Shown one piece after another: positions 4,191 to 60,160 of a DNA stretch of 64,000 nucleotides (positions are counted from its first letter, which is position 1; each line of letters starts with the position of its first letter). This stretch comes from Malania oleifera. Lineage: Eukaryota > Streptophyta > Magnoliopsida > Santalales > Ximeniaceae. The position numbers and the translations under genes are program-made. The DNA lies in contig NC_080426.1 in assembly GCF_029873635.1 (NCBI RefSeq), positions 54,760,093-54,824,092 on the forward strand. The letters run 5' to 3'. The notes under the pieces are model-generated. The model saw only the letters and a list, made by a program, of their open reading frames with translations. It did not search any database and was not told the origin of the DNA.

Positions 4191-4192
4191 CG

Positions 4193-24589: not shown

Positions 24590-24645
24590 TCACCAAGGCT
24601 GCCCTTTCCCTCCAAGTCGCCGTGCAAGTTCCCAATCCTTCTTCA
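24590..24645 (-). CDS. CENH3: CENH3 exon 7 (helix 3 and C-terminus)
   Basis: 56 nt. The acceptor is ..TTGCTTCCCAG at 24646 and on. The first two bases TG complete an ATG codon with the last A of exon 6, giving M139, then [17 protein letters not shown] and TGA at 24592-24590. It lies 22.7 kb from exon 6, and the exact phase match is strong evidence that the exon is real. Confidence 0.95.
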
Positions 24646-27600
24646 CTGGGAAGCAAGCAAATGAAAAGGAACGGGTTCATCTTAACATATCACAAGGTAC
24701 TAGTGTACAGCACTCTAACCAGCAAGATACACTAAAATTGGAAAATGAATCCAGATATATGGCATGCAATACCATGAATCAATACAACAATAAAGAAGCA
24801 GATCCCTCCAATGCCCTACTGGGCAAGTGTCCATTTTTTCTATTTTCCTACCACACTACAATTGCTATCATTTTTTCATTCAAAGCAACAGTCCTTTTGC
24901 ATGTTTCCATCCAAAGAAAATGTCCTGATTTGGAGTCTGCAGCCGAAACCAAGCCAACCGAGCTAGTGGGATTCAAAATGTGCAGAACCGAACAGATTAA
25001 AAACAAAAAACCACTAAGCCAAACTCAGAAGTTACAAAATTTTAGTCCTTTTTGCAAACACATGCAAATCAAAGTCAAGTTTTAGACAAAAATGCACCAA
25101 CTCTTTATTTAGAATCAGCATGTATTCATGTTAACTAATTGCTAGAATCAAGTAACTATTCAAGCATTTCTGCTAGAAAAATATGGAAGAAGAAGAACTG
25201 TGTCAAGTGATGGCTTTACCCTTGATTCAGGCTGAGCTCCACTGGTGGCTATCAAGCTGTGAATTAATCTTTGAAAAATTGAAGTGTCAAACCTTCAAAG
25301 CTTCGAAAAAGGTTGGGTTCAAGTTGAAGAATCAGAATATTAAAGTATCAAATGTTCGGTTCAGGTTAAAGACCCAGAGATTCAAAATTTCTACAAATCA
25401 ATCTTTGTTGAATGGTCAAATGGGTGGGATGCCATCAAGGACAAGGATAGCAGAGGCATTGACCTGGCGTGGTGGTAGTAAGATGGTGGCAGCAATGGGA
25501 GTAGGACAATAGATGCACTTGCAGCATGATGCAAAACGTTAAGAGTTAGCCAGTGTGGATTTGTTTGTATCAAATTGAGAAGTAAAAAAACAATGATAAT
25601 ATGCTTGTGATTTTTTTAAAATAAATTATTTTAAAAATTCATTAACTGGTCAATTCAATTTTCTCAATTCAGAAGGAAAAGTCACTTTGGAACCAACTAA
25701 CCATTATCCATTGTTTACTTATTGAAGAGGACCAGTTTAACTCCTTCAACCGAACAGGTTGGACCAAACTTGATCCCATCTCTCGATTCAATGACTGATG
25801 CACTCCCCTCCTAGGTGTGGAGCACTCTCAAGAGGATATAAAAAATTGGACGAATGAGCTGATCCACAATGAGAGTGCATAAAGGAGATCTTCGCCATAT
25901 GAGGGCTGATTGTCTCAATTTTGTGAGGCATCTTTATGAGGTAAAATCATGAGGCTCAATGGACCAAAGTACATAATACTAGGCTGAGACTATTGAGGTT
26001 GAAGATCGGGCGGCAAGCCTATTACAATTCCACATGGCATGTGTACTAGGGAGATCTTGGCTTTAGAAGGACGAACTAGGCCTTAACTTTGTGAGGCACC
26101 TTTATGGGACAAAACCATGAAGCCTAAGCGATCAATAGTTCACCAAAGTAAGAAAACGGCTACATTTGGTGTCAGAATTACCTTGGACTTAAGAGATATT
26201 GCCATGTGAGTAGGTGTGTGCCACTATCAAGGATGCCAAAGATTGAACAAGAGACAAAAAGAGATCAAACAAGAGAGCACGTCACAACCTACATTAGGAA
26301 TGTCCTAGAAAAAGCTTTCCCATATAGAGACAAATTAGGTCTCAATCCTATGAAATGCATTTCATGGGACAAAATTATGAGGCTCAATGTGCCAAAATAT
26401 ACCACCCTAGAGTTGGACCAAAACCACTGTCGTCTTACTTCCAAGAGTGCAAATCAATGATTCGAGCATTGACAATTATTAATGCTTTTTTCACTCCAAC
26501 TACAGGCAACCAACAAACTGGTGCAAAAACATCTTAAAATTCTTAACTAACTCAGCATATCCCCTTTCCAACTCTTGAGGATGAATAACAAATGCAGGTG
26601 GAGTCTGAAATTTAACAATTATTATTGGCTAAAAAATAAAACCACCCCAAGGCAAATGGAGCTAACAAAAACCCTTGTCAAAAGTTTAACTTGTATCGAA
26701 AAGCATATGCTAAGTATTTGTTGCATAATATCACAGCTGGCAGATTTTATACAAAGGAAAACAAAATAACTTGAAATGAAAAGTGCAACCTAATAAATAC
26801 ATACTAGAAACAATTGCAAATAATCTTTTTGATGCTACATCCAAGCAAGAGGAATTATATTTTTGTAATTTTTATATCATTTTTTCATCTTTTATTTATG
26901 TATTTTGTTAGGATTGTATTTTTAAGATTCAAGGTTATTTTATTTAGTAAATTAGTATTTTAATTTATTTAGATTTCTAAAATTGATTTTATTATTTCCA
27001 AAGCACTGTAAACCTATAAAAGGCCTCCTTGGCTTGGACATGTTATTTGTATGCCCTAAACCCCAAAAAAAAATGATATCATGTAAGGACATTTACATTG
27101 TATCTTCCTGTTAGGGATCTAGGAACAATAATCACACACACAAGAAAAACAAGCACACAAAATAAAAACACCAGATTTACGTGTTTCGGTCTAATCTGAC
27201 CTATGTTCACAGAGCACATCAAATATACTATAACCAAAAAGAAAAACAAAAGGAGGAAACACACACTCAACTCAACTCTTCTCACACTTTTCTCCCTCTC
27301 TCAGCTTCAGCACTCTCACACTCCTCACTCACTCGCTTCATTTGCACACTTCACACAACACAAATGTTCTTATTTATAGATACATAGGATAGATATAGAA
27401 GGAAAGGAGTTATTGCATTCTAATGGGATAATGAGCACATGGTATTTAATGGATTATTTTAGCATGTGATAATTGTGTTTTTGACAGAATGAATTTGGTA
27501 CACGGCTGCAGCTCATCCTCTTTAAGGCATTTCCATTTTCTCCAGTTCCATTTCAACTTAACACTTCCTATGTTCGCCTAATTAATAAAAGGTCAAGTTT

Positions 27601-28511
27601 TGCATAGTTTATAGGATTTGAGTCGAGGAAATAAGTCCTTAAATAGATTAAGGACATAAAACTTGTATCCTTTTGCACTTGGTTATAACAAAACTTCTGT
27701 TCATATAATTACCAACTAGGCACTGATAATCCAAATAAATTAGCTTGAGCTATGTATGACATTTAGGGAATGGTGCGACACTGAGACAAACACAAGGATA
27801 CATGTTTAAAATGTTACATGTTAAAGACCAAGTGCACAGATCATGACCAACCCCTAAAACACTAGAACGAAGTTTTACGTATTTGTCGAAGTGTTTATAT
27901 TACACTTGTGTATAGTATAGTGCTTAGATAGTTAGGTATAAGATTTTTTTTAATGAGCGCACCATACACTCATTCTCTAATCAAGAAATCTGAATGTGAA
28001 CAAGCAGGTTATGATAGTCTTATGCATGAAGGTAAGTGAATATAGACATAGTACCTTGACGGTAAATAATGAAAGTCCTATAAGGTCTTCTTAATATGAC
28101 TTAGGAAATCCTTCACTAAGGCATAAGAGTAGAAGACCTCTCTAATTAAAGTCATAATTAAAGCTCAGACACATAGCATTAAGCAAGAGATTCCACATAT
28201 ATTTCTCATTATCTAAGTTGCTTAATCGAGGCATTGCATTAAATAAGGACTACATCACACATTGATTGTAATGGAATAAGCTCTCTCCCATTCAAATTAA
28301 CATATATCACCAACTAAGTCTCATGGATAATGAATGTCCTAAAGAACTTTGATATTAGAATCCTCATAAAAGGAGATATGAAAGGTGTTTTAATTCAACT
28401 AATTAGATAATTGAGATATTGATCTAGATTGATATAACCATACTCGCCATTAGATTAGAATGAACTTAATGGGCCACACGTGATAAGAATAAAAATTTGA
28501 ATAAGAAACGA

Positions 28512-28554
<43 letters not shown>

Positions 28555-31500
28555 AAGGGATATCTTAATGACAAGGAAACCACTTGGCAGTCACCCGATG
28601 CCTCGGAACTCTATATAAGAGATCAAAGAGATAAGACAAAGAAGCTTGCCATCCCTAGACGCCCCCACTCTCTTCTCTTTCAGTTTCTTTCTCCTCTCTC
28701 TCCTCATAAGTCTATTGTTCTTAAGTGTTTGTCAGGGGCTTCTTCTTATTCCTTGCAGTGTATGGTACACACTTAAGAGGCTAAGATGCTTGTGTGACTA
28801 AAGAACTTGATTCAAATATTGATGTAATCAAGAGGCTGGTTATTCTCTCTCTTCTTTCCTTTTTCAAAATTAACCATGGATGGCATCTTTGGCTCCTACC
28901 TCGAGTGGTATAAAGCAGCCTCTAATCGGACGCAGTTGTCACTGTTCTTTGGCAAGTTTCATAATATTTAGCTTAAATTGTCATGTTGTCAATATTTAAT
29001 AGGGTTGTTTGTGCTAAATCAAACTTGCAGGGTTTAAATCGCTTTGTGCCACTGCATCTACACCACCATCCAGTCATCCACATTTCGACCACCACTACTC
29101 CTTTCTGCAATCTCCACACTTTCCCCTTCCATTTAGAGCCACGATAAGGGGGAAATTTTCATTAAAACAGGGTTACATTTGGTTCATGGGGTGCTAATTC
29201 TTTGGAGTAAGGCAGCAGTAAAGTAAGAATTTGATAGCTTTCAAAAGAAAATATGTTATCATAAAGAAAATGACAATGCAAGAACTTTGTAAATCCATAA
29301 CATGGAATAGTCAAGTAATGACCATTAATGTCTATTTCTAAATTCCATGTAGGATAGAATGACAAAATTTTTTGCATGAATGATTTGTTTTAAATTATTA
29401 CATCTATATACAATATTTTTGTTACATTCCCATCTTATTCCATTCTATTTCTAAGAATAGACATCCAACAAACCCAAAAGTTTTGCAATGAGGAGTAGAA
29501 GCAAAAACAAAAGCAAAAAAAAAAGTGTAGCATCAAAAAATAAAAATAAAAGAGACGAAAAAAGAAAAAGAAGACGAATAAATCATTGCTTTTACAATGC
29601 CAACCAAAGCGAAATTCATCATTGACAACTGTTGATTCCTTGCCCAAAATTGGTTATTATTTTGGGTAAATTTATCAGCTGCCCTCCAGTAACTTCTCTA
29701 CTATTGAATTCTATTTCGCTTCTGATGCCATCGAATTGCATCGATATCTTTCAAGTTTACTTGCAATCATAGTTCTAGAACCTTCACATATTCAAAATTT
29801 GAGGTTGGATTTTTCCCAACTAGAGGAGATTCAGGAGAATGATGCAGCATGCAAACAAGATGAATTATATTTTTTGGAAATTTTATTATGTTTTCAATTT
29901 TTTCATATACTTTATTTTTATTGGAATATATCTACAAGATTATAGGATATTTTCTATTTAGAAAATTTGTATTTATTGTTTATGGTGTGGCTCTTATACT
30001 TTGTGGGGGCTTATGAACAAAGGGAGAAAAACATATATTGATGCAGCAGCAATGACTCGTCGACAAATGCCCTGTGCTCGTCTACAAGAAGATGTCGAGA
30101 GGTGAAAAACTGCAGAGTTCAAGACTCATCAACGAGTGGGTTGACTAGTCGATGAGTGGTCTTCTCTGACTCGTTGACAAATCACTTGTACTCGTCGACA
30201 AATGCGCCCGGGCTGCGAGAAGTTATTTGAATTTTGAATGCAAACGGTGTGACGGTTGGGGATTCAGAGGGAAGCCTCCGAGGACTTATTAGATATGTTC
30301 TTCTGGGCATATTTTGACATGTAAGAGAGTAAAAGAGGGGTAAGAGAAGGAGAGAAGATCATTGAGTGTGTATCTTTGAATTTCATAGTGAAATTTCTTA
30401 CCGATTGCTCCCGTAGATGCAAGCTTTCCCGAACCACGTAATTCCTGGTGTCGTTGCTCTTATCTTAACTCTCTTTATATTACTATGGTTGTGGAATGTT
30501 TTTGTTTATCACCAAATTTGTTTGTTGCAAGTATGTATGTGTGACCCTTTATACAATGTTCATTCTGCTGCGCATTATTGGGAGAGACCGCCCTTATTTG
30601 GTATTAGAGAGTGTTGTATGGCCTCTGAATTGAAGGATCTCTTAGTGCAACAAGGTTTTGGTGAAAGGTTAATATAGATTTTCAACCGGATAGCATAGAT
30701 GCAATGACTTGGAAGGGAATGGGAGCAATCATTTGTCTTTATTTAGCTAAGGACGTGTTGCATCATGTCATGAATAAGAATTCTCCAGCATTAGTTTGGA
30801 AAAAACGGGAATGCCGATATATGTCTAAGGGTTCATCAAAATCTGCAAGTGTAATGGAGGAAGAGTCAGAATGTAGTGTTGGAGATATGTTACGTGGTTC
30901 ATCGGGTTCGGGGTGCCTCGCGGATAATTCTTGAATCTTAGTCACCGGATGCTTTTATCGTAGGAAATGGTTTGACACCGATAGGTCAATTTATGCTAGT
31001 TGTATTTTGTTTGAAAATTATATTTCATACAAAATATTTGTTATTAGAAATGTCAAAATCAAAAATGTATGATGGTGTTGTAAAAACCATATGTGACATA
31101 AAGTATGAATCGGGTCTAAGGAAGAATGGTATTTCATTTGGAATTTTAGACCGTAATGGATATTGTTACAAGTCTGAATGTCGAGAAATGAAAGTGTGTG
31201 AGGGTAACTTGATAGTGATGAAAGGAGATAAAGTAGCAAAAAATATCTTTACACTACAAGATGTTATAGTTGTAGGTGGAGTTGCAACTATTAAGTCTGA
31301 GTCGGATTTTTTGTGGTATATGCGGTTAAAGTGTAAAAACCCAAAATGCGAAAAAATGGGTTTAAATATTAAGAGGGGCAAAATTGGAAATTTTTGGGTC
31401 AAGGGCTATAAAAGGAAATTTCTATTACTTCTTCATTAAGTAAACTCAATCCTATCTCTCTCTCTCTCTAAACTCTCTCTACTCTCTCCTTCTCTCTAGA

Positions 31501-34500
31501 ATTCTTCGTCGATCGTTGACGAAATCGAAAAACGGAAGCAACCACGAGGATCGTGGAAGGATTCTCTACAACTTCTACGGATCGGAATCTTGTTTCGGAG
31601 ATTTTCGGGTTTCGGCGTAAAATCAAGATAAGGCTCGATTTTTAATTCTGATCCAATAGTTTTGTAGGTATCAGTCTTGTGAGTATATGTTGTACTATGA
31701 ATTGTAGGTTTTGAAACTCGATTCGCTGTTTAGGGACCTTGGAGTTCGGGATTTGCTTATGGGGTTAAGGTAAGGGGAACTATGTTTATATTGGTTATTT
31801 TTAAAATCGGACCCGATGGAACTGTGGTCCACGGTCCTGTGTGTGTTTTGGCTACTCATTTAGGGGGATATTTAGGGGGATCTAACGGGAAAAACTATGG
31901 GTTTTTTATTGTTACAGTTTTGGGAAAAAGGGGGCGACGGGCTAAATCCCTAGTTTTGTTGAAAACCGAGTATATGTGTGATTTATACTGTGATATTGGG
32001 ATGACCGTGCCTTGACTTTGTTTAAACTATATTTGTTTGGAAAACCATGATTTAGATTACCAAATGAGTATAGTTTGTTTGGTTATATGAGCATGCATGT
32101 GTGTGTGATATGTTGAAGTGCTAGTAGGAACGTGGTTTCGAAATTGTTTCAGGTACTGAGAGTGGCCGGCTCTATATCCGAGGGTATGTGTATCACCAGC
32201 CACGTTGGCAAGAGTGGCCGGCTCTATATCCGAGAGGGTGAGCCTATTCCAGCAGATCAGGTCGAAGGGTGTGGATCCACCAGTTAGCGCCGGTACGATG
32301 CCATGAGAGTCGAGGACTAGCCATGTGCCGGTGGCGCCATGCTTCGCGGGTTAGCTACGGGCCAACGCCGGAATACCCGACCGGCTTCGGGCCGATGGGT
32401 GTGACGACACCGGGTTACTGATCATGTGTGTGTATTGTGACGGGGTTGCGTATAAATGGCCTTCATATGTGTGCGTGTATGCACTGTGTAAATTAGTACT
32501 GGAATGCATTTAACTGCATGTATGTTGTATCGTGATAACATTCAAATGCCACACACCGATATAACCTGTGTTCTTCCTTACTGAGAGGTGTCTCACCCCT
32601 ACTATACGTACATTTTTACAGGTCCTTCGGGTAACCGGAACTAGCGTCCTAGTGTAGGGAGCGTAGTGGCCGGTGTACTACGTTAGCTCTTGGGTAAGTG
32701 CTAGGACTGTAGTTTTGTTGGGTTGCCATTTTGAGTTGTATTTGGGCACCCAGTTTGTCTGTTTTGTTAGAGTCATGTTCTACTCTTGTATAGACTCTAG
32801 TATGGTACTGCATATGTTGATATAGAATGACTTTTTCCACTACGTATATGATTATGATTGGATATGTTTAGGGTGCCTGGGAACCCCACGGGGTCGGACC
32901 CTCATCCAGTGTACTGTATCTGTGATGATTTATATGATACAGGGACAGGTTAGGTTACAATTTTCACCCTCGAGTCCCATTTCCGGGTTCGGGGCATGAC
33001 AGCTTGGTATCAAAGCCAAGTTGGTTACCAGATCTTGTAGACTTGGTTAGGTTTAGTTATGAGTACATACCAGAGTATAGGATGTGGATATGGGTAGAGT
33101 TGGTTGAGAGTTGTTCGGTTGCTAGACTAGGGATTGTCGATGGTATTCCGTGTTTTTCCTAGGATGACGATTCCAGTAAAAGTAGGGCAGATCATTGATG
33201 ACTTTCGTGTCAGTGTGATAGGACATACCTAGACCTAGCAGGAAGTAGTTAACACGATTAATGTAGATCATTGTGTTAACTGTTTATGTTATAGGGATAC
33301 TGATAGATTCCTATTGTGTTGCAGAATGGAGCCCAGGGATAATAATCTGGGAAGTGGCTCCGAGGAGACTGCGAGTGATGAGTCCCTTTCTGTGCCTCGA
33401 GGTTTGATGAGGCAGGTATTACGGGAGATCGGGCGGAGTGTGAGGAGATGCGAGTGCTCTCATACTGCTGCGGGGTGCACCATTGTGAGGTTCACACGCA
33501 TACATCCTCCGACGTTCTCTGGAGGACCTGACCCGACGACAGCAGAGAACTGGATGGAGAAGACTGAGAGGATTCTGGGAGTTCTGCACTGCACGGATAG
33601 GCAGGGAGCCCTCTATGCTACTTTCTAACTGTCTGGGGAGGCGAGTCGATGGTGGACTGCGGTGAGTTTGCTGGAGAGACAGAGAGCTGGTCCTGAGGAG
33701 ATGACATGGAGCCGTTTCAAGGAGGTGTTCTTTGACAGATACTTCCCGACTTCAGTACGTGATGCGAAGGCAGATGAGTTTGCTGCTCTGACGCAGGGGA
33801 GTTTGACGGTGCAAGGGTATGCGGCTCGATACATAGAGTTGTCCCGTTTTGCACCATGTATGATCTCGAGCGAGTATGAGAAGACTCGGAGGTTCGAGAA
33901 GGGTTTGAGGAAGGATATCCGTAGAATGGTGGGTATGCTTCAGATCCGCGAGTTCTCGGTATTGGTGGATAAGGCCACGGTGATCGAAACTGGTATTCGA
34001 GAGGACAAGGTGGATCAGGAATCGAGGAAGAGGACAGTACCTTCTGGTTCTCAGACAGGATCTCGTCAGGGATCGTGGAAGAAGAAGAGCAAAGGCTCAG
34101 GTTATCATCAGAATACCGAGTGCCAGGTTTCTCAGAGGAGCCAGACTGATGGTCGTTGTACCAGATGCAACAGGTGGCACGAGGGTGAGTGCCGGCCATT
34201 TGGAGGTAGTTGCTACAACTGTGGCCAGCCAGGCCACAGGTCTCGTGATTGTCGAGCACCGAGGCAAAACGTGCCTGCAGTTAGTGGGGACTGAGGGAGC
34301 AACCAGAAACCTCAGGGAACCATTCAGACGAATACAGCTTCGGCCAGAGTATACTCTCTTACTCTAGCGGACGCTGAGCATGCAAGTAACGTGGTGACAG
34401 GTACCTTATTATTGCTTTTGAATAAAGCTTCTGTTTTGTTTGATTCGGGTGCAACCCATTCCTTTGTATCTGTGAATTTTGTGGGACGGTGTGGGGTTGA

Positions 34501-43464: not shown

Positions 43465-43499
<35 letters not shown>

Positions 43500-49400: not shown

Positions 49401-52400
49401 TAATGTTTGATATTTTTAAGAAAATTCAAGCCTTATCCCTGCACCAGAGTCAGACATGAAAAACTCTGCTTTTCTCCCCCAAATGCACACGCATGCTCAG
49501 CTAAGCACAACAGTATACCTTATGGTCTTCAAGAAAAGTTTGAATTCAATAAGCAAATTTCTTGAATATAATAATAAATTTATTAATTTTTCCTTTCAGT
49601 ATTTTACAATCTCAGAAACAGAAAACCCACTGACCATAAAGAAACTGAAGCATTCTTTCAAGCTGAGGTTCCTTCTGCGTTGCATTCAAACAGCCTCCTC
49701 ACAATGACAGCAAATGCCCAGGGAATATAACTCAAAGCAGTGGTCAAATCATTGCCACCATATCTATGAGAACACAATCCATGTTCTGCAGGATTGCCCA
49801 TTTACAATGTCAATCTAGCAGTTGGTGATAAATCTACAAATAGCAGTGAGTTTCTTTTCATTTCCCATACCAGAGAGAACTACCATAAATTTGAATGAAG
49901 GTTGAGCCCCTAGAATCTCGTCCAGGGAGCATGGTTTTGCCAATACAGTTAGGAACTCATGGTCTATATTTGATGCAAGCTTCATTTAGATACAGAAAGC
50001 AGTCCCTACTATATCTCATAAACCTGGGAAAATTGGGCATTGTGAATTTTAATATTAATCAAGTCCAAGAAAATTATCCGTGTCTAATGGTAGTTTCTAT
50101 GCTTAAATTGTTGTTTTTTGTCCTACATTGGTACAATAGTTCCACATTCGTATAAAAAGTTGTTTTGAATTTTTTGTATTATTTGTCTCACATTGGAGAG
50201 AAGTGTTTTTTGGACTTGAGGTTGAAGCTATATAAAGAGCTCAACTCTCCATTTGTAAAACACACCTCAAAGTTGTACTTTGTCAAGAAGTAGTGGATTG
50301 ATCATCGGCGCCCAAGGACATAGGTAATTCTATACCAAACGTCGTTAATTTCTTATCTTGTTCTTTTCACTGTTTTATTATTAGTTTCTGCATTACTTTA
50401 GTTTCTTATATATTCAATAACAATAGTTGTAATATTGGTGTTTGGCACAAGTTGGGTGCCCGACACAACATAAAGTGGGTGAAACCAAGGAGGCTACATC
50501 TGAGAACCCATGTCACCAGGAATTTTCAACCAAATAACAGAAAATCAGTTGCATTTACTTTGGAATATTCTATCGACAAACCTAAGCAGGTTATAGTTTT
50601 TCATTTTTAAAAAAAGCAAGTTATGGTTAAATTATCCACCATAAATAGTATCATGAGCCCATCGTTATCATATTAATTCTAATGATAGATCTCAACAAAA
50701 ATTGTCATTCTAAATAAAGAAAAACCCATAATTTAGTTTCAAATCTATTATAACAGAAGCATGATCTATAATAAGTCCTAACATAATCATTTTAGAATTA
50801 TGACTGGAAACTAGAAGCACTAAGCCTTACAAAAAAACCACTAATTTGTGCATGATCAATAGTGTGTGAAAATAGAGAGAGTGAATGGATGGTGTAAGTT
50901 TCAAGTATATGCTTACCCACCAAGCTTTAGAAGCCTGGTGCTTTCAAGTTCCATAAGCACACCGACACCACATGAATTCTTGTTTATGAAATCACTTGAA
51001 TCTGTGGTGCCAATATAAATTTTATAAATAGCTTAGACTAGAAATTTAATATGTCACTATAATCATCAGAGCAAAATCATTAACCAATAGAAATTCATAG
51101 GGAAAACATTGGAAGACAGATATTGAGGTAGAGAATGGAAAAATATATTGTTTGGAATTATTAATTTATTTTCAACACCATCTCAAAAAAAAAATGTTTT
51201 TTTTTCAGCAACATCATGATAGTCAATTTAATATTCTATCAAAAACTAGTGACCTAACATATGCCAAATCTCCAATACAACACCTAAAAAAAGCATGCTT
51301 GCAGTAATACAAAGAAGTCTCCGCAGAGACAGATGCACACATGATGAACGATACCTCCTGAAGTGCTGTTAGAGCTTCAGCAGTCCAACGACTAATTTCT
51401 GGAGCATAGAAATTGCTAATTTCTTTCACCTTCCACAAATGATAAGAATGACTATCACTAACTGAGTTAATCTCATATAAAAAATAAAAATATTAAAAAA
51501 AAAATCAACAATGGAACCCTAAAATAAATAGGCAATTACAAGAAAAAGAACAACATGCACAACAAATAGCAAATGTCAACAAATAACTACATACAGAATC
51601 CATAAAACTATATCACAACAAATAGCGATATTCAAGAGCGCTGGAGTGGAGACAATCAATCAGTTCTATAGCCCCATAAGGTTGCCTTAGGCAAGCATTA
51701 AACAACTGATTAGTTACATATGCAAGCAGTCACTCACTGATGTAAAATTCTGTGGAACACCAGTTCATGAATCCTGACTATTAACCTCAAGTGCTATTTG
51801 GAAATTCCAAAACTAGGTGTCTGCACGTACATTCTAGGTGTGTAGGAGCATCTATGAGTTCAAATAGTTTTATAAGGTGGCCATATCTGTTTTGTAACCA
51901 ATACTCTTTACATACTATTTGAATTCACATCAAATATTTCAAAAAAAGTATCTTGATGCAACACAATGTATTCTACTCTTGTAAACATATATTTAACATT
52001 GGAAATATATTAAATATTTATGAGCAGGTAGAAAAGCAAAAGCAATAGCATGGAATCTATTTTATATGAAAAATAGTGTAGTTTCTAATTTCTAAATAAT
52101 TGTATAGCATTCTTTAAATGCTTGTACTATTACATATATCTTGTTTTATGATTTACTTAATCCCTTTCATTCTTGTTATTTATGTTTTAGATAAACTTTG
52201 GTAAAATACTGATGTATATGTTTAAAATATATGGTTAGTCCTAAATGAATCACACCACATCTCCCTAAATTTCAAGAATATTCACATTTATGTCCACAAT
52301 TTGTATCCTTGCAATTGTTGGGGATCTAGGAGCGACAATCACACCACAAGCAAAAATAAACAAGCAAAATAAACACCAAGATTTAACGTGATTCGGTCCA

Positions 52401-55400
52401 AACTGACCTACATCCACAGAGCACACCAAACTTCAATAAAACTAGGAGAAAATACAAGAGGAGGAGGAGGCTCCAGCACTCCACTCAACTCAACTCACTC
52501 TTTCTCACACCTCTCTCTCTCTCACCTTCAACTCAATTACACTCACATATTTTTCACGCACACACATCTCCATTTATATAGATGGATGGGGATGGATATA
52601 AATGGAAGATGGTAATGAGGTGATTCAATGAGATGAGCTGGTGATTAGCACCGACACTACAACATATCAAAGCTGGCTCTCTACAGCTCATCAAAGTTGG
52701 CTCTCTACAACTCATCAAAGCTGGCTCTCATCAAGGCTCCATTTCCATTACAACTCAACAATCTCCCACTTGGAGATGAAACACCATCTCAACCAGTATA
52801 TAGGTAAATGATTCAGCTTCTCTGTGGTCACCGCCTTTGTCAACATATCTGCTGGATTCCTAGTACCTTGGATTTTTTCAAGTGTCAGCACTCCGTCCTC
52901 CAACAGAGATCTGACAAAGTGATAACGTAGTCCAATGTGTTTGGTTCTGGAATGAAATGCAGAGTTATTTTCTAGATGTATCACACTCTGACTATCGCTA
53001 TGCAAAACATTTCTCATCTACTTTATTTTGAGCTCTGTCAACAAACCTTAAAGCCAAATCATCTCTTTGCTGGCTTATGTCACTGCTACGTATTCAGCTT
53101 CTATAGTGAATAGAACAACAATCTTTTGTATCTGTGACATCCAACTAACAGTTGTTGTGCCAACTCTTTGCTGGCTTCTGTCACTGCTACGTATTCAGCT
53201 TCTATAGTGAATAGAACAACAATCTTTTATATCTGTGACATCCAACTAACAGTTGTTGTGCCAATAGTGAACACATATCCGGTGGTACTTCTACGTTGAT
53301 CAATTTCACCAGCACAATTGGCATCAACATACCCTTGAATTTTCAAGTCTCCTTTGTCGAAACATAGGCACTTATCAATAGTGCCATGCAGGTATCTCAA
53401 GATCCACTTCACTGCTTCCCAGTGAGTCTTCCCTAGATTTGACATGAACCTCCTGACAGCTCCCACTGATTGGTCAATGTCTAGTCTGATACAAACCATG
53501 ACATACATGAGACTTCCAATGGCTGAGGTGTAAGATACCTTAGCCAGGAAGTCCCTCTCTTCATCTGTTTAGGGAGTCTAATCCTTGGAGAGGCAGAAGT
53601 GATCGGCCAATGGTGTATTTACTGCTCTAGAGCTGCTCATGTTGAAGCCATGTAAAATACAGCTAATATACTCTAACTGAGATAACCACAATGTTCTCTA
53701 TTGTTTATCTCTGAAGATCCGCATCTCAAGTATCTGCTTTGCTGAACCCAAGTCCTTTATGTCAAACTCCTCTAACAATTGCAACTTCAATTTTCTAATC
53801 TCTTCTATATCTGGTCCTACGACTAGCATGTCATCGACATATAGTAATTGAATGATATAGCTAGACGAATACCTCTTCAAGTAGCAACAGTGGTCGGCAT
53901 TGCACTTCTAAAAATCTTTCCTGCGCATAAAACCGTCAAATTTTAGGTATCATTGCCTGAGAGCTTGTTTGAGACCGTACAACCTCTTTTTCAATCTACA
54001 CACAAGATTCTCTTTACCTTTCACTGAGAATTCTTCTGGCTGATGTATGTAAATCTCCTCATCTAAATTACCGTGAAGAAATGTCATCTTCACACCCAAC
54101 TGCTCGATATATAGGCCCTCCGAGACAACAATGCTCAAAACTAATCTGATGGTTGTTAGCTTCACAACTGATGCAAATATGTCGGTGTAGTCGATTCCTT
54201 CCTTCTGCTTAAAGCCTTTGACTACCAATCGGGCTTTGTACCTCCTGGAGCCATCATGCTCCTCTTTAATTCTGTACACCCACTTGTTGTGAAGAGTCTT
54301 CTTACCTTTGGGCAACTTAGTTAGTTCTCACATTTTGTTGGAGATGAGGGAGTTCATCTCGTCCTTCATTGCAAGCTCCCACTTGATCAAATCTCTTGCC
54401 TGACATGTTTCATCATAGCATTCGGGTTCTCCTCCATCTATAAGAAGTAAATAATTCATATACCTCTTATTTGGTACATGGAACCGAGAAGATCTCTTAA
54501 GCTCCGGAGCTGGAGTAGGAGGCGGTGGTGCGACGATCTGCTCCACACGTTCCTCCGCCTGAGGATTCTCGGTGTTTTTCTGTTGTGTCCCAACACCTTC
54601 TAGGACATCATCCAAGTCTACATAGGTTGTTTCATTCTGAACTGGTTTTGTTGTGTGTCTGTCTTTGTACATCACCTTTTCATTGAAGATCACGTCTCTG
54701 CTTCTGTTACCTTCTTGTTTTCATCATCTCAAATGCGATACTCATACTCATCTTCACTATAGCCGACAAAGGTGCATTTCCGAGACTTTGGATCAAGCTT
54801 GTTTCTAACATGATCACTAACATACACATATGCAACACAACCAAAAACTTTCAAATATAAAAGTCTCACCTCTTTTCCACTTCATACTTCTTCTACGAGT
54901 CTGTGATCCAATGATACTGATGGACTCCTATTGATCAAGTATGCTGTTGTGTTGACTACCTTTGTCCAAAATTGCTTTGGTAGGCCTGACTACATACGCA
55001 TGCTTCTAGCTTTTTCGGTCAACGATCAGTTCATCCGCTTGGCTACGTCGTTATGCTGGGGCGTACCTAGTACAGTTCTTTCCATCCTGATACCATGCTC
55101 ACAGCAGAATTTCTTGAACCTGGTGTCTTCATACTCACCACCGTTGTCAGCTCTCAGTTTCTTGATTTTTAAACCAATTTCATTTTCAACCATTGCTTTC
55201 CAAATCTTGAAAGCGTCAAAGACATTTGATTTCTATTTCAGAAAATAAACTCATACCTTCCGAGAATGATCGTCAATAAATGTCATGAAGTAATTCCTTC
55301 CGCCTATGGATGAGACGGGCGTTGGTCCCCATACATCTGAATAGACTAGTTCAAGTCTCTCCTTTGGGGTATGAGTGTATGTCTGAAAATTGACCCTCTT

Positions 55401-58400
55401 CTGTTTCCCGAGTATGCAATCCTCGCACATGTTAATCTCTACTAACCGTAGATCACTAAATTTTCCTTTGAATGCTTCATCCAGAGTCTCTTCTCGCTCA
55501 TGTGACCAAGTCATTGGTGTCAAATGTTGCTATCGTCATTTCCTATAACAACTGAAATAGACATGCAGGCATTAGAAGTCACATAAAGTGTTCCACTTTT
55601 CTTACCTCATGCAATCATCAGTGCACCCTTTGACATCTTCCATTCATCGCCAATGAATGTTGTGGTGTATCCTTCATCTTCCAGTTGTCCAACTAAGAGC
55701 AAGTTCTTTCTCAGGTCTGGAATATATTTGACATCCTTTAGCTTCCATACGGACCTGTTCATCTTAATCTTCAGAATCCTTTGCCGACTATGTCGCAAGG
55801 TTGATCATTGCCAAGGTATACCATACCGAAGTCACCTGGTGTATACTCCTCTAGGCAATCTCTACTGCAAGTGGCATGAAATGAAGCTCCAGAGTCTAAG
55901 ACCCAAGATCTTCCATACCTGCTTCCTTTCCATGAATCTTTCCCTCGACTTTCTACGTTCAAGGCTAAACTTGAAGTGGAAGCATTGTTTGACTGCATCC
56001 TGATCTTTTCCGTCAAAATCATGTTGATGACCTCGTCATACTTCAGCTTTGATTTTCCTGCGAAACTACTGATCGTAGTAACGATACATTTCCAACTCTC
56101 AGGCAACTGACTAAGAATCAACAAGGCATGAATTTTATTGTCAAACGTGATTTCAACTGATGCGAGTTGATCTGATAGCTCGTTGAAATTGTTCAAATGT
56201 TTACTAAAACTTTGACCTACGAGTATGTGCATGGTAAACAACTTTTTCATTAAGTGTACCTTATTGGAGGCTAATAGTTGTTTGTACATGTTGGAAATCG
56301 CATCCATAAGTGATTTGGTGGTTGTCATGTGCTTGATGTTGAAGGCTACAGACTTTGCTAGCATTATCCTGACAGCTCCAAGAGCATTCTGGTCAAGCAA
56401 CTCCCACTCATCCTCCTTTATGGATTCTAGTTTTCCCTTCAATGGTAAATGCAACTCCTTACCAAACAGGTAGTCCTCAATTTGCATCTTCCAAAAACCG
56501 AAATTGGTGTCGCCAAACATCTCGATCTTTGAGCTCTTTTCGTTCGACATCTTGATTCACCTATCTAGAGATGGAATCAATTCAAGCGGACAACACAGTT
56601 GAATCCGAAACCGCCAAAAACCTTGGAAATGGTTCGACTCATTCAAAAAACGGACCTGAAATGGCTCCAAAAAGCCTAGTCAAATTCTGTTAAACTTAAC
56701 AGAATATCCTCCTTTTTAACGGAATATGCTGACGCCGTTACTGACGCCATTTGTTGACGCCGTTACTGACGCCATTTACTGACGTGGCTGCTAATGTGGC
56801 AAGTGGGGCCCAGATGATGAGGCAGCTAACGTAACAAAGTTAGTCTCAATTGCTGACATGGCATTTGTCATGGCAAGTGCACCCAACTACTAACGTGGCA
56901 TCTGACGTGGCACTAACGTGGACTGAGACTTCTAACAGGGATGCGCTAACGTCAACTATTGCAGCAGACGCGTGAGATACATAGGCGCATGTGGGCGCGT
57001 GAGGTCACGTGCTGGTGACCTGGTGGCGCATGAAGGCGCATGACAACGACGCGTACTCCTAGAAGCGCGTGTGGGTGCATGGGACCTCCTTTCGAGCTTT
57101 GATTTGCACCGTTAGCTTCATCTTGTCGAGAGGAATACCCTGGTGTGCTCAAAACTTGATTTTGAGATACTAGGCAGAGGCTCCAATCTAACGATTTTGC
57201 TCTGATCTAGCGGTTTTACTCCGATCTGGCTCTGATACCAATTGTTGGGGATCTAGGAGCAACAATAACACCACAACCAAAAATAAACAAGCAAACTAAA
57301 CACCAAGATTTAACGTGGTTCGGTCCAAACTGACCTACGTCCACGAAGCACGCCAAACTTCACTAAAACTAGGAGAAAATACAAGAGGAGGAGGAGGAAG
57401 CTCCTGCACTCCACTCAACTCAACTCACTCTTTCTCACACCTCTCTCGCTCTCACACCTTTAACTCAATTACACTCACATATTTTTCACACACACATATC
57501 TCCATTTATATAGATGGATGGGGATGGATATAAATGGAAGATGGTAATAAGGTTCAATGAGGTGATTCAATGAGATGAGCTAGTGATTAGCACCGACACT
57601 ACAGCACATCAAAGCTGGCTCTCATCAAGGCTCCGTTTCTATTACAGCTCAACAGCAGCCACATGTATGCCTTATGGGCATGTGTAATATACGGTTATTA
57701 TATTTCAATGCTAAGAAGCATAAATCATACTCTGCGTTGAATTAACAAAGATGTAATTCTAAGGGACAAATTTCATAGGACAATACAAAATGTACAAGGT
57801 TTATTTGACGGAAAACAAAGTTTGCTAAATTGGCAAGTAGACAATTTTTATCAGATTACTCTATTCATTCCACAGTTCATCCTTTTGACACAATTTGAAA
57901 AATTTTAAACAAATTTCCCACATCTTGTCATCAATTAGAGCCACTCAGTTAAAACAGGTCGAAGACAATATTCCCAGTTTGAATAATATAATTTATCACC
58001 AATCATCACTTCATGGGGTGTTTAATCGAAAACAAAGTCTACACCACTCCAAAGAGGGTGTAACTTTATTCTCCATTTAAGTGAAATTTGATTCCATTGT
58101 TCAACAACTGACATGTAGGTTACAAAACTGCCTGCATAAATATGTTAAATCTTTCATAACTCAGTACAAGTCAAATAGTCTAAGGAAGGTTTGTACAGTT
58201 GAGTCGAGTATCTACAATCTTAAATAAATTATACAGAGCTGTTTCAAAGGGTCCAAGTTATCATATATGTAACTAACAATACAAAAATACAGTGAATAGC
58301 AGTCTCGGCTGGGAATCTATTTAACTATAAACTATCTAATTTTAAGCCACTTTGAATGATAAGTGATCTAACAAACTCACAGTTCTAATGAAAGGAGCAG

Positions 58401-59033
58401 CTGGGATCAGCAGATTCCAAGTCTTTTGCAAGCGTCGAATCTCCTGAAGAGAAACCGTTCCCGGCCTATAGCGGCGGTGTCTTCGCACATTTCGCGACCC
58501 TGCCTCACCTGAAAGGATCAAAATCATTCCTGACCCTCAACTTCACTTGTAACAAATTTCTAGAAAACTCAACAGAAAAGAAGAAAAAAAACCTAGCATT
58601 ATTAACATTTTGTCTACTAAAGTTAATGACATTTGCTCTGAAAAGCAGGGGAAAATTTATTTCCAAAATGCGAACCGAACACCGACGAAAACTCACTTGG
58701 TGTAGCATCCCCCGCCATCCTAGAACGTCCACCTCGCTGTAAATTTTCCCCAAAATGGTTTTTAAAAACTGGATGAGATACAAATGTACCAAACTTTTAA
58801 AATAACAGAAGAATAGATTAAAATTTTCCAAAAGCAGAAATAGAGCAAGAGAAGAAATGTACCGAACTCGTTCCAGGGGTCGACGGTGAGGCGACTCCGG
58901 CAGCTGCGAGATTTAGAGAGAGAAAATCAGGGTTTACGAATAGAGAGAGAGAGAGAGAGAGAGAGATCTGAGTCTGACCAGATTTGCGACGGGAACTTGT
59001 TTTCCTGCTGGCGACATGTTTGATTCTCGCCAT
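24590..59033 (-). CDS. CENH3: Centromeric histone H3 variant CENH3 (seven exons)
   Basis: CENH3 replaces histone H3 in centromeric nucleosomes and seeds the kinetochore. Coding exons on the minus strand are 59033-58979, 58903-58863, 58736-58697, 58508-58381, 51429-51355, 47463-47388 and 24645-24590. All introns are GT..AG, phases agree throughout, and the join gives 471 nt (156 residues plus stop). The product has a basic tail of about 58 residues starting [18 protein letters not shown], then [17 protein letters not shown] (alpha-N), PAAPFIRT, a long loop 1 ([10 protein letters not shown]), helix 2 ([20 protein letters not shown]), AKRVTLMKKD and the tail [12 protein letters not shown]. The loop-1 extension, RWTAEAL and GGKGQPW separate it from canonical H3, whose tail ends GERA. 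No frame damage is seen. Only the gene size, about 34.4 kb through transposon-filled introns, is unusual. Confidence 0.96.
25800..26420 (+). repeat. Degenerate tandem repeat, three copies
   Basis: Three diverged units of roughly 150-200 bp share, in order, a GTGTG(T/C)ACT-like start, a segment like GGAGATCTTGGC, then TTTTGTGAGGCATCTTTATG, GGACAAAACCATGA and GGCTCAATGGACCAAAGTA-like text (centres at about 25930, 26100 and 26370). No coding potential. Probably part of an old retrotransposon. Confidence 0.6.
26831..27060 (+). repeat. Old LTR-like repeat, copy A (uninterrupted)
   Basis: Matches the repeat split by Copia IV (29841-29973 plus 41913-41990). The shared blocks are GATGCTACATCCAAGCAAG, GAATTATATTTTT, AAATTAGTATTTTAATTTATTTAG-like text and the TATA-like CTATAAAAGGCC at 27014-27025. 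Position 26955-26959 (GTATT) corresponds to the Copia IV target site, so this copy shows the empty site. Confidence 0.7.
27109..27563 (-). mobile_element. Solo LTR of the Copia V family
   Basis: TGTTAGGGATCTAGG..CTTAACA, similar along its length to the two LTRs of Copia V (52317-52760 and 57243-57654), including the GTTTCGGTCTAATCTGACCT block. It is flanked by perfect 5-bp direct repeats CTTCC at 27104-27108 and 27564-27568. With a TSD and no internal sequence it is a solo LTR left by LTR-LTR recombination. Its orientation is minus, like Copia V and CENH3. Confidence 0.9.
28440..29060 (+). repeat. Unclassified LTR-like sequence with (GT)n
   Basis: A (GT)n run of about 38 bp (28513-28550), a TATA-like CTCTATATAAGAG at about 28610, CT-rich leader sequence, and a G/C-richer 3' part ending with GGGTTTAAATCGC. 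It resembles an LTR promoter and leader but no partner or PBS was found. The open frame at 28516-28776 begins in the GT run and is not coding. Confidence 0.4.
29841..29973 (+). repeat. Old LTR-like repeat, copy B, left part
   Basis: Left half of the repeat also seen as copy A. It ends with the Copia IV target site GTATT (29969-29973). The right half resumes at 41913 and runs through CTATAAAAGGCC at 41969-41980. Upstream, 29060-29840 has no recognisable gene. Confidence 0.7.
29974..30598 (+). repeat. Copia IV 5' LTR
   Basis: Starts TATTGTTTATGG, where the 3' LTR has TGTTGTTTATGG (one G-to-A change in the terminal TG). It carries a GTCGAC-type motif array at 30055-30205 upstream of TATA-like sequence near 30290, and the conserved Copia block CCGAACCACGTAATTCC at about 30428. 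Confidence 0.85.
30599..31331 (+). pseudogene. Copia IV gag-protease remnant (left part)
   Basis: Begins at the PBS and runs into [15 protein letters not shown] (30627) and [20 protein letters not shown] (30705), then jumps by an internal deletion of gag to [11 protein letters not shown], a stop, and a degraded protease. The protease-to-integrase linker is readable as [20 protein letters not shown] and NIFTLQDV (31050-31260), and the region ends at LWYMRLK of the pre-integrase domain. Gypsy III inserted here. Most of gag, including the zinc knuckle, is missing. Confidence 0.8.
31332..33001 (+). repeat. Gypsy III 5' LTR
   Basis: TGTAAAAACCC..GGGGCATGACA, 1670 bp. The TATA box GCTATAAAAGG is at about 31405, followed by CT-rich leader. 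A short internal repeat (GTGGCCGGCTCTATATCCGAG) occurs twice at 32161-32240. Confidence 0.95.
33326..34294 (+). pseudogene. Gypsy III gag
   Basis: Start [15 protein letters not shown] at 33326. Capsid core 33662-33900 ([27 protein letters not shown]). Two Cys clusters follow, [12 protein letters not shown] (34159) and an intact CCHC knuckle [14 protein letters not shown] (34210-34251), which in working elements packages the RNA. A TAA at 33626-33628 replaces a Gln codon, and a TGA ends the frame at 34292-34294 where relatives continue into protease. Confidence 0.9.
34391..34843 (+). pseudogene. Gypsy III protease
   Basis: Aspartic protease with an intact catalytic motif [12 protein letters not shown] (34438-34473) and [15 protein letters not shown] further on. 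TAG stops at 34796-34798 and 34826-34828 fall at Gln codons just after the domain. In an active copy it would process the Gag-Pol polyprotein. Confidence 0.9.
34844..36230 (+). pseudogene. Gypsy III reverse transcriptase / RNase H
   Basis: RT with [13 protein letters not shown] (35134), [12 protein letters not shown] (35350) and an intact catalytic FIDD box (35440-35451), then [20 protein letters not shown]. RNase [19 protein letters not shown] (35880), [14 protein letters not shown] (35990) and ADALSRK (36200). Defects are a one-base deletion at about 34990 and TAG stops at 35050, 35095, 35509, 36031, 36079 and 36124, each at a codon expected to be Gln or Trp. Confidence 0.92.
36231..37470 (+). 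pseudogene. Gypsy III integrase
   Basis: Intact HHCC zinc domain ([19 protein letters not shown], then [10 protein letters not shown]; 36525-36670) and DDE core: MDFVTGLP (36738), [14 protein letters not shown] (36912) and [13 protein letters not shown] (37018). Stops at 36787-36789 and 37093-37095 (Trp positions) and 37465-37467 (Arg position). It inserts the cDNA in active relatives. Confidence 0.92.
37471..37772 (+). pseudogene. Gypsy III integrase C-terminus and chromodomain
   Basis: [20 protein letters not shown], then a frameshift at about 37660, after which the chromodomain reads [20 protein letters not shown] and ends QLF-TGA at 37770-37772. This places the element with the chromodomain-bearing chromoviruses. 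Compared with Gypsy I the acidic EEAS segment has become KKTS. Confidence 0.85.
37773..38101 (+). other. Gypsy III 3' UTR, 62-bp duplication and PPT
   Basis: Non-coding. A 62-bp unit beginning GTGTATGTGTATGATGGG is tandemly duplicated (37901-37962 and 37963-38024). The polypurine tract AAGGAGGGGAGA abuts the 3' LTR. Confidence 0.85.
38102..39760 (+). repeat. Gypsy III 3' LTR
   Basis: Same sequence as 31332-33001 with scattered transitions and a small deletion (near 38637, relative to GGGGGATATTTA in the 5' copy). The terminal TG is mutated to AG. It ends GGGCGTGACA, followed by the TSD TAAAG. Confidence 0.95.
39761..41345 (+). pseudogene. Copia IV pol remnant (right part)
   Basis: Continues after Gypsy III with integrase ([20 protein letters not shown] at 39776-39835, normally SDVWGP), a DNG-like region lost by frameshift, and EIFEQGKL-like text. 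Then come a decayed ELWA..FGC segment (about 40085-40130), an RT palm trace reading [17 protein letters not shown] where YVDDMLIA is expected (about 40636), and RNase H-like fragments to about 41200. Many stops; no function possible. Confidence 0.7.
41346..41912 (+). repeat. Copia IV 3' LTR
   Basis: TGTTGTTTATGG..CACAACA. It contains two perfect palindromes, ACTCGTCGACGAGT and CTTGTCGACAAG (about 41427-41464), upstream of TTATATATGC (about 41595). Compared with the 5' LTR the second half of the motif array is deleted. Confidence 0.9.
42131..43005. repeat. MITE-like element with TTTTAAAAGG ends
   Basis: The left side has CTATTTTAAAAGGCTCAATC and the right side, inverted, TTTTAAAAGGTGAAGGCG. 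Between them are AAGGCTTA/TAAGCCTT motifs near both ends. A second foldback element (42552-42811) lies inside. No TSD fixed. Confidence 0.4.
42552..42811. repeat. Foldback MITE, nested
   Basis: About 260 bp whose two halves are inverted repeats. The ends are GGGACTAAAGATACTAACC and, inverted, GGGAAAGAAGACACTGACC. Internal pairs include CTTGAGGTTTCAAAATTTCC with the inverse of the right half. No coding sequence. Confidence 0.55.
43281..43525 (+). repeat. Copia LTR fragment with (GT)n
   Basis: Shares about 110 bp with the complement of 60275-60395, including AGAGTTGAAACCTTAAGCAG, TTTCGTTTGATAATAG and AAAATTGCACAGAGGCTCC. The rest (TTTTGTATTTGCTCTGTGTG and a GT run at 43468-43497) matches the usual R/U5 layout of Copia LTRs. 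No partner LTR or TSD. Confidence 0.55.
43741..46690 (-). pseudogene. RTE-type LINE, 5'-truncated, split by an insertion
   Basis: Non-LTR retrotransposon on the minus strand. The 3' end at 43741 is a TTG-rich tail. Read from the right: [14 protein letters not shown] (about 46450), [20 protein letters not shown] (46230-46170), the catalytic box [10 protein letters not shown] (about 45862-45835), [16 protein letters not shown] (about 45640-45600). After the insertion come [14 protein letters not shown] (44255-44210), [10 protein letters not shown] and [15 protein letters not shown] (44170-44080). The motifs match plant RTE reverse transcriptase and its C-terminal region. Frameshifts and stops throughout. 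Confidence 0.85.
44262..45590. mobile_element. AT-rich non-autonomous DNA transposon-like insertion in the LINE
   Basis: The left end CCTAGTTTGGAACTACTT and the inverted right end CCTTGTTTGGGAGTACTT agree at 15 of 18 positions. Subterminal AAGTG(T/C)TT motifs are inverted at both ends. The 1.3-kb interior is extremely AT-rich and non-coding. It interrupts the LINE frame between HRV and WVKWRS, which shows it inserted later. The TSD could not be resolved. Confidence 0.6.
47388..47463 (-). CDS. CENH3: CENH3 exon 6 (end of helix 2 and loop 2)
   Basis: 76 nt. The acceptor is TTCTGTAG and the donor GTAAGT. It encodes residues 114-138 ([20 protein letters not shown], then KRVTL) plus one base of codon 139. 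If intron 6 were retained, the frame would end two codons later (SK then TGA), removing helix 3. Confidence 0.95.
47464..51354 (-). other. CENH3 intron 5 (3.9 kb)
   Basis: Bounded by donor GTATCG and acceptor CTGTAG. No coding frame is supported. It contains AT-rich sequence (48200-48570), a short DATWKQ-like remnant shared with repeats A and B (about 48861-48885, low confidence), and the LTR-like segment at 50110-50480. Confidence 0.85.
50110..50480 (+). repeat. Short LTR/TRIM-like sequence
   Basis: GTCCTACATTGG and GTCTCACATTGGAGAGAAG boxes, a TATA-like GCTATATAAAGAGCTC (about 50228), then TTGGTGTTTGGCACAAG and GGGTGCCCGACACAAC near the end. This layout is usual for short plant LTRs. No PBS or partner was found. 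Confidence 0.45.
51355..51429 (-). CDS. CENH3: CENH3 exon 5 (CENH3 targeting region)
   Basis: 75 nt, phase 0 at both ends. The acceptor TTGTGGAAG has a weak pyrimidine tract; the donor is GTATCG. It encodes residues 89-113 ([13 protein letters not shown], then [12 protein letters not shown]), that is the end of helix 1, the extended loop 1 and the start of helix 2. This is the CATD region that directs CENH3 to centromeres. Confidence 0.95.
51430..52316 (-). other. CENH3 intron 4, left flank of Copia V
   Basis: Intron sequence without recognisable features. The other flank is 57655-58380, also featureless. Intron 4 without Copia V would be about 1.6 kb. Confidence 0.8.
52770..54693 (-). pseudogene. 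Copia V reverse transcriptase / RNase H
   Basis: [22 protein letters not shown] and [18 protein letters not shown] (54315-54150), then the catalytic YVDDMLVVG (about 53840-53815) intact. RNase [21 protein letters not shown] (53330-53265) and [20 protein letters not shown] (about 53000-52935). Frames are broken at 54328, 53950, 53698 and 53227. A 101-bp tandem duplication lies within RNase H. Confidence 0.88.
53063..53264 (-). repeat. 101-bp tandem duplication in Copia V RNase H
   Basis: Two copies (53063-53163 and 53164-53264) starting CTCTTTGCTGGCTT, differing at only a few sites. 101 is not a multiple of three, so the duplication alone shifts the frame. Confidence 0.9.
54700..55605 (-). 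pseudogene. Copia V integrase
   Basis: The GAG-pre-integrase/zinc region ends [14 protein letters not shown] (about 55430-55390). The DDE core starts [15 protein letters not shown] (first Asp) and [19 protein letters not shown] (second Asp) is readable at about 55150-55125 and FGCVAYVYV near 54840. At least five stops interrupt 55250-54700. Confidence 0.85.
55771..56550 (-). pseudogene. Copia V gag-protease (zinc knuckle deleted)
   Basis: Open frame of 259 codons starting [20 protein letters not shown]. It has a UBN2-type gag core ([31 protein letters not shown]). Where TNT1-type elements have a CCHC knuckle, the frame passes directly from [13 protein letters not shown] to the protease [13 protein letters not shown], so the knuckle is deleted in frame. 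The catalytic DSGA is intact. The frame ends at 55771, and continues in another frame at 55798-55607 ([20 protein letters not shown]). Confidence 0.88.
56690..56960 (-). repeat. TGACG / ACGTGGC repeat cluster in Copia V leader
   Basis: Between PBS and gag. On the plus strand GACGCCGTTACTGACGCCATTT is effectively present twice (about 56732-56782), followed by six or more (T/C)(A/G)ACGTGGC or decayed TGACATGGC motifs to about 56920. Confidence 0.75.
58381..58508 (-). CDS. CENH3: CENH3 exon 4 (tail end, alpha-N, helix 1)
   Basis: 128 nt. The acceptor is ATCCTTTCAG and the donor GTGAGT. It encodes residues 46-88 including [35 protein letters not shown]. This is the most conserved part of the histone fold start, and it fixes the identity as an H3-family protein. 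Confidence 0.96.
58697..58736 (-). CDS. CENH3: CENH3 exon 3 (N-terminal tail)
   Basis: 40 nt. The acceptor is ATTTACAG and the donor GTGAGT. It encodes [13 protein letters not shown] plus the first base of a Ser codon completed by exon 4. The tail is fast-evolving in plant CENH3, so support comes from splice sites and phase, not from similarity. Confidence 0.85.
58863..58903 (-). CDS. CENH3: CENH3 exon 2 (N-terminal tail)
   Basis: 41 nt. The acceptor is AAATCTCGCAG and the donor GTACAT. Its first two bases complete an Ala codon with exon 1; it then encodes [13 protein letters not shown]. The Ser/Thr/Pro-rich composition is typical of CENH3 tails. Confidence 0.85.
58940..58966 (+). repeat. 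(GA)n in CENH3 intron 1
   Basis: About 26 bp of GA on the plus strand, that is a CT tract in the 75-bp intron, which can serve as part of the pyrimidine tract before exon 2. Confidence 0.9.
58979..59033 (-). CDS. CENH3: CENH3 exon 1 (start of N-terminal tail)
   Basis: 55 nt, ATG at 59033-59031. It encodes [18 protein letters not shown] plus one base. MAR-K-H is the usual start of plant CENH3, which makes this start preferable to the upstream in-frame ATG at about 59105. The donor GTCAGA is weaker than consensus. Intron 1 is only 75 bp and contains a CT run. Confidence 0.9.
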
Positions 59034-59239: not shown

Positions 59240-60160
59240 TTGCCAAGTGTCCTCTCTTTCGGTTGCGCTTTGAACAAGTAGAAGAAGAGCGTCCGAGTAA
59301 CTAAGATATGAATTATCGCTCTCATATTTTTTAACTCAAAACATTATTAAAACTTAATTAAATTCATGTCCTTAAGTGTTTTTATTTCTCCTCAATAAAG
59401 AAATAAATTATAAAACGTGTTTGTTTAAATTATCAATTTTCTGTTTGTTTTATCGGTTTTCAATTATTTTGATAACTTTTTTTTCAAAAATTTTAATATT
59501 CAGAAATAGTTTTTTTATTAAATTATTCATTTTATACACTTTTAAATTAAAATCAAAATTAAATGATCATATGAATTTAAATACAATTAAAAGATATATA
59601 TGCATAAATTTTAAAAAGTAGTAATAAAGCCAATTACAAAATATTTTTACTACTTTTCAATTGTCATGTCTAATAAAATTTTATTGTGCAGTAAAATTAG
59701 AAAGTAGAACAATTAAAAAAATAATTATAATAAATTTATTTTTATTATAATAATTTTTTAATGTGTATTATTTGTAATTTTATTATTTTAATCATATTTT
59801 TATAATATTATTTGATTTAAAGTGGAAATGAGCATTATTAATTAAGATTTTAATTGGTATTAGTTTTATCAATGTTAACCAAACAGGTTATTTGCTTCTA
59901 ATTTTTAGCTTCTATTTTTGGTTTTTGATTTTCGTTTCTAGTTTTTGTTTCTCTAATTTTTTACAACCATACCACATAAATAATTAACTAAAATTATAAA
60001 TTGTGAAAGTAAGAATCTTGGCATTTGCTTGGATTAAGAATTTCATAAAAAAATAAAAGGAAAATAAGAAGGAAATTATTTTTCATTGTACTTTCTTTTT
60101 ACATAAAATACTATTAAAAACAAAAAAAATTATTTTGATATGACTAAAAATTAAGAAAAT
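59240..60160. other. AT-rich intergenic DNA, no gene seen
   Basis: Upstream of the CENH3 promoter. Very AT-rich with MITE-like text (60025-60180 resembles the repeats at 22440-22890). No coding frame is convincing. Confidence 0.7.

Follow-up and report, generated by a model that had tools for sequence, protein, structure and literature searches.

Two intact CENH3 genes in Malania oleifera, one of them spread over 34.4 kb with LTR retrotransposons in its introns

Malania oleifera carries two intact CENH3 genes. The one on chromosome C10 was probably enlarged in part by LTR-retrotransposon insertions after the two had separated by duplication, and is most likely transcribed as one pre-mRNA and spliced normally. 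The second, compact gene lies on chromosome C4. The architecture of the C10 gene is an extreme yet expected product of LTR-element accumulation.

The locus was analysed in a window of 64,000 nt (C10:54760093-54824092), from which the exon chain was rebuilt. Seven exons on the minus strand join in phase to give 471 nt, specifying 156 codons and one terminal stop; each exon string has a single minus-strand occurrence in the window, and all six introns possess GT..AG borders. The gene spans 34,444 bp (59033..24590), of which 33,973 bp are intron, the introns measuring 75, 126, 188, 6,951, 3,891 and 22,742 bp from the first to the sixth (Table 1). The initial annotation had proposed this seven-exon, 156-residue gene, its phases and its borders, together with two joins spanning 22.7 and 6.95 kb. 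Exon reconstruction confirmed the model, the two long joins being introns 6 and 4.

Table 1. Features of the CENH3 locus on chromosome C10, in positions of the 64,000-nt window; C4 refers to the second CENH3 gene.
Feature	Position	Strand	Basis or remark
CENH3 exon 1	58979..59033	-	exon reconstruction; ATG at 59033
CENH3 exon 2	58863..58903	-	exon reconstruction
CENH3 exon 3	58697..58736	-	exon reconstruction; contains Met39, the start of NCBI isoform X5
CENH3 exon 4	58381..58508	-	exon reconstruction
CENH3 intron 4	51430..58380	-	6,951 bp; C4 counterpart 1,587 bp
CENH3 exon 5	51355..51429	-	exon reconstruction
CENH3 intron 5	47464..51354	-	3,891 bp; alignable to C4 intron 5 (3,111 bp)
CENH3 exon 6	47388..47463	-	exon reconstruction
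CENH3 intron 6	24646..47387	-	22,742 bp; ends 47387-46701 and 25151-24646 alignable to C4 intron 6
CENH3 exon 7, including stop codon	24590..24645	-	exon reconstruction
Copia LTR retrotransposon in intron 4	52313..57654	- (gene strand)	LTR pair (about 57239-57654 and 52313-52712) and domains; frames broken
Outer LTR element in intron 6	29973..41905	+	LTR pair (about 29973-30599 and 41345-41905); split by Gypsy
Gypsy nested in outer element	31332..39760	+	LTR pair (about 1.67 kb each) and domains; frames broken
Alternative exon of predicted isoform X6	50984..51001	-	within intron 5; encodes tail IQVIS
Alternative exon of predicted isoform X3	49744..49785	-	within intron 5; encodes a tail of 13 letters (not shown)
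Word GCGGGAA	59217..59223	-	190 nt before the C10 ATG; also 170 nt before the C4 ATG

The C10 protein contains an H3-type histone fold (Histone, PF00125; E-value=1.6e-32), and its matches in the PDB are to H3 and CENP-A. Among the database matches listed, the best carry the name CENH3, the top two being Malania oleifera isoforms. Identity to plant proteins named as CENH3 among the best matches listed is 59–73% over most of the length, as against 48–49% to the intact canonical H3 genes of the same genome, so that the protein is nearer to CENH3 than to its own genome's canonical H3. The N-terminal tail is divergent: it holds most of the differences between the C10 and C4 proteins, and many of its columns vary among 47 other plants. 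Both proteins would be expected to load on centromeres.

The genome was scanned with a Pfam histone survey (60 matches) and with a whole-genome search using the CENH3 protein (41 matches). CENH3-type exons occur at two places only, the C10 locus, with 6 of the 41 matches, and C4:98230496-98238808, with 4. The remaining 31 matches show 32–65% identity; the strong ones are canonical H3 genes or pieces of them, and the weakest may be due to chance. Groups of intact canonical H3 genes were seen in the CENH3 protein search at C2:145823604-145983098 (5 matches) and C4:45357843-45553552 (4 matches). The C4 CENH3 gene has seven exons with the same phases as in C10, GT-AG introns of 78, 148, 190, 1,587, 3,111 and 3,282 bp, and an intact frame of 477 nt (158 amino acids). 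From ATG to stop it measures 8,873 bp, about a fourfold difference in length. With this intact copy present, the C10 gene is not single-copy, and the reading in the initial annotation that function rests on the C10 locus alone is not supported. A third CENH3 copy absent from the assembly is possible, given that the published gene set is reported to lack 4% of BUSCOs (PMC10199050).

Introns 4 and 6 of the C10 gene contain elements with two LTRs. The insert in intron 4 also carries a copia-type gag (gag_2) and an RVT_2 reverse transcriptase, identifying it as a Copia element. In C4 the same intron is uninterrupted at the insertion point (window 57655 / 52313 corresponding to C4 98231336 / 98231334), and subtraction of the Copia leaves 1,609 bp of C10 intron 4 versus 1,587 bp in C4. 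The letters flanking the insertion, GCTGC before and ATTGC after, are identical at three of five positions; the empty site in C4 is clean. Intron 6 holds a Gypsy element, with gag, RVT_1, RNase H and integrase zinc-binding domains, bounded by a TAAAG target-site duplication (31327-31331 and 39761-39765) and nested in an outer LTR element. On C4, a relative of the outer element runs on unbroken across the position of the Gypsy, its matches meeting at 98218531/98218526. By eye the outer element appears to be Copia-type; two of its ORF pieces were searched against Pfam and gave no match. Full-length Copia and Gypsy elements had been claimed for these introns: the paired LTRs are indeed present in both, but the reading frames of the elements are broken into short ORFs.

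The intron 4 Copia and the outer element with its nested Gypsy make up about 17.3 of the 34.0 kb of intron. Some of what remains in intron 6 is repetitive as well: in a comparison with about 210 kb of C4, 7,907 of the 22,742 bp of the whole intron find a match, as against 137 bp of intron 5 and none of intron 4, even with its Copia counted. Repeats are also found in the rest of the window. Downstream of the gene lie further LTR-element pieces; those at 1436-4618 and 13117-15082 are similar to the Gypsy of intron 6 (67–69%), and that at 7326-8655 to the outer element of the same intron. There are minisatellites at 5850-6138 (26-bp or 78-bp units) and 6540-6770 (46-bp units). Short dispersed repeats at 43256-43475 and 60208-60432 are similar to each other in inverse orientation, and another, at 59517-59889, is like a segment of C4 intron 5.

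The two proteins are identical in 130 of 158 alignment columns. A tree was built from both, together with 47 of 135 collected proteins (chosen by the analyst, with truncated Malania isoforms excluded); in it the C10 and C4 proteins are sisters (support 100/97) on branches of 0.13 and 0.10. Residue 6 of the C4 protein, within the N-terminal MARxKH start, is T, the residue being H in C10 and in 42 of the 47 other plants. Since Malania is reported to show only the ancient triplication common to core eudicots (PMC10235099), a recent whole-genome duplication is an unlikely source of the pair, which more probably arose by dispersed or segmental duplication. The 4.9 kb of the window upstream of the C10 gene show scattered matches, mostly out of order, to the 200 kb upstream of the C4 copy.

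The C10 and C4 introns align at 76–85% identity, and the coding sequences (NG86) have an overall Ks of 0.169 and Ka of 0.105. Synonymous divergence is uneven, with a Ks of 0.37 in the tail (Ka 0.30) and 0.060 in the fold (Ka 0.018), all from small counts, whereas the introns along the gene differ by 15–24%. Gene conversion over the fold, an idea suggested by its low Ks, is not favoured, since introns 4–6 are about as diverged between the copies as introns 1–3 and the fold value reflects only four synonymous changes. The LTR pairs differ by K2P distances of 0.0505 (intron 4 Copia, 370 sites), 0.0619 (Gypsy) and 0.0944 (outer element), which correspond to 1.9, 2.4 and 3.6 My at 1.3e-8 per site per year, a rate used in PMC6377399. 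The duplication came first and the swelling of C10 later: for intron 4 this is shown by the empty site of its Copia in C4, and for intron 6 it is indicated by the LTR distances of 0.05–0.09, which lie below both the C10/C4 intron divergence and the overall Ks. As a counterpoint, the Ks of the fold alone is not above the LTR distance of the outer element.

In an effort to judge how unusual such a length is, chaperonin genes (PF00118) were used as a size control. The 58 matches of this one family, sorted by strand under a 40 kb limit, fell into 21 clusters, 14 of which had more than one match; six of these 14 exceed 10 kb in span. The longest covers 24,066 bp, including a gap of 19,430 bp between matches that may hold unmatched exons, and none of the 14 reached 34 kb. 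As far as this single family goes, genes stretched to 10–24 kb are common in the Malania genome, about 75% of which is reported to consist of transposable elements (Copia 28.9%, Gypsy 30.0%; PMC10199050). The C10 gene had been called striking; this is weakened, because the genome is so rich in transposable elements and other conserved genes are long, but no sampled gene was of its length.

Predicted isoforms are named by NCBI from both loci, namely, among the matches listed, X5, X6 and X3 from C10 and X5 and X1 from C4. The C10 isoform X5 (118 amino acids) is identical to residues 39–156, starting from Met39, and thus spans both giant introns to exon 7. Isoforms X6 and X3 of C10 end inside intron 5 and are missing the second half of the histone fold; X3 in addition uses an upstream acceptor before 58768 at exon 3. 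A full-length isoform of 156 or 158 amino acids was seen for neither gene among the 120 matches listed per protein search. The canonical exon 5 donor is used in all three C10 isoforms listed. In both C4 isoforms listed, exon 5 is extended by 14 nt (C4:98232287-98232300, downstream of the canonical donor), producing a frameshift in exon 6 within the histone fold. With a rough score table drawn from general knowledge, this +14 donor scores 7.64 against 6.32 for the canonical donor in C4, and 5.35 against 6.32 in C10. If the isoform pattern and these donor scores reflect real usage, the compact C4 copy would be the weaker gene.

The word GCGGGAA, which we take to be an E2F core, is present upstream of both genes and is a possible cell-cycle promoter element. 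When the C10 upstream stretch was shuffled 2,000 times by mononucleotide, the word turned up in 42 of the shuffles; in an automatic alignment of the C10 and C4 upstream DNA, the two occurrences fall in different columns. Arabidopsis CENH3 is named an E2F target in a review (PMC4110626). Alternative splicing of CENH3 has been reported in cotton, for 55 of 206 transcripts (26.7%; PMC4308911), and several alternatively spliced forms are described in banana (PMC5489561).

The C10 gene might instead be a decaying duplicate in which the transposons cause early termination or silencing, the compact C4 copy doing the work. The existence of that intact copy is in keeping with this idea. So is the fact that two of the three listed C10 isoforms lack the end of the histone fold, which counts against the explanation that we prefer, and of the four differences between the two folds, C10 seems to hold the derived residue at three and C4 at one. 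One of the two cowpea CENH3 genes is, moreover, reported to be dispensable (PMC7738545). By its sequence, however, the C10 gene is not a pseudogene: neither its frame nor its splice borders carry a lesion, and its branch is similar in length to that of C4. Within the fold Ka is below Ks, small as the counts are, and predicted isoform X5 reaches exon 7. We regard decay of the C10 copy as unlikely. The initial annotation had itself held that a compact expressed copy, with the C10 locus silent, would speak against its reading; the compact copy exists, but predicted isoforms are named from both loci.

The opposite imbalance, in which C10 is the main functional CENH3 gene and C4 is failing through a stronger +14 donor of intron 5 that frameshifts its histone fold, is rather less probable still. 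The +14 donor is found in both listed C4 isoforms and the canonical one in all three from C10, the former outscores the latter in C4 and not in C10 by the approximate table, and the T at position 6 of the C4 protein departs from most other plants. Against this, the isoform lists are incomplete and the donor table is approximate, while the C4 frame is intact and its fold has acquired fewer derived changes than that of C10. In that case, centromere function in Malania would hinge on the removal by splicing of a 22.7-kb intron derived largely from retrotransposons. The giant introns could also be an assembly error, with repeats misjoined between exons, in a repeat-rich genome whose published assembly (1,495.1 Mb in 13 pseudo-chromosomes) is reported to contain 596 gaps (PMC10199050). 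This is very improbable: the 64-kb window holds no N, introns 4, 5 and 6 can be aligned, in order and at either end, with their C4 counterparts, and the TAAAG duplication and the nesting are clean. The NCBI record behind isoform X5 has the same exon chain, though it probably derives from the same assembly.

In the preferred explanation, that of two intact genes with C10 enlarged after duplication, a seven-exon CENH3 gene of some 9 kb would have been duplicated onto another chromosome. LTR retrotransposons would afterwards have entered C10 introns 4 and 6, helping this copy to grow to 34.4 kb, and would have left its exons, phases and splice borders undamaged. Most likely, the C10 gene would give a single long pre-mRNA, and ordinary splicing would take out the transposon-filled introns, with the C4 copy as a second source of CENH3. 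In Arabidopsis such splicing is reported to be permitted by heterochromatin marks that mask the intronic transposable elements, together with IBM2 and EDM2 (PMC4417168). By analogy, the C10 introns may be heterochromatic and may need factors of the IBM2/EDM2 type. The Arabidopsis genes are like the C10 gene in having transposable elements within the introns of protein-coding genes.

CENH3 is an essential chromatin gene in plants, and the Malania pair bears on the question of which of two copies is retained in a long-lived tree. With introns that can be aligned and an insertion site that is cleanly empty in C4, the two genes form a natural experiment on transposon-filled introns and the output of a dosage-sensitive gene. 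In its architecture C10 stands at the extreme of a kind already known, and a matched pair with and without the transposons is a useful test system.

Among known CENH3 genes, the alphaCENH3 genes of cereals measure 2,050–4,679 bp, with an intron 6 of up to 2,588 bp (PMC8603533), that of banana about 5.5 kb (positions 70772-76310; PMC5489561) and those of cotton 2,565–2,673 bp (PMC4308911). In the reported data these genes share with Malania seven exons, six introns and a lengthening of the introns toward the 3' end, and in some cereals intron 6 is the longest, as in C10. They differ in size, at about 2–5.5 kb versus 34.4 kb with LTR elements inside the introns. The claim that the C10 gene is longer than reported plant CENH3 genes thus stands with respect to cereals, banana and cotton. 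A literature search, at the level of titles and the opening lines of abstracts, showed no comparable transposon-stretched CENH3 gene among the papers listed. LTR elements have been reported in cereals in the spacer between alphaCENH3 and betaCENH3 (PMC8603533), and in Malania C10 they lie within introns. In grapevine, 2,697 introns of 3–100 kb were reported in 2,563 genes, without functional bias and with many LTR elements (PMC3058033). These large LTR-rich introns are like those of C10, although in a different species and, in the part of that report consulted, with no mention of CENH3.

Two CENH3 paralogues in one genome are also known from cereals (alpha and beta) and from cowpea, where CENH3.1 and CENH3.2 lie, as in Malania, on different chromosomes and differ mainly in the N-terminal tail (PMC7738545). 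Because cowpea is reported to require one of its genes for normal growth and fertility but to be able to dispense with the other, unequal roles of C10 and C4 would be unsurprising. What sets the Malania pair apart from those of cowpea and cereals is a fourfold difference in length through transposons.
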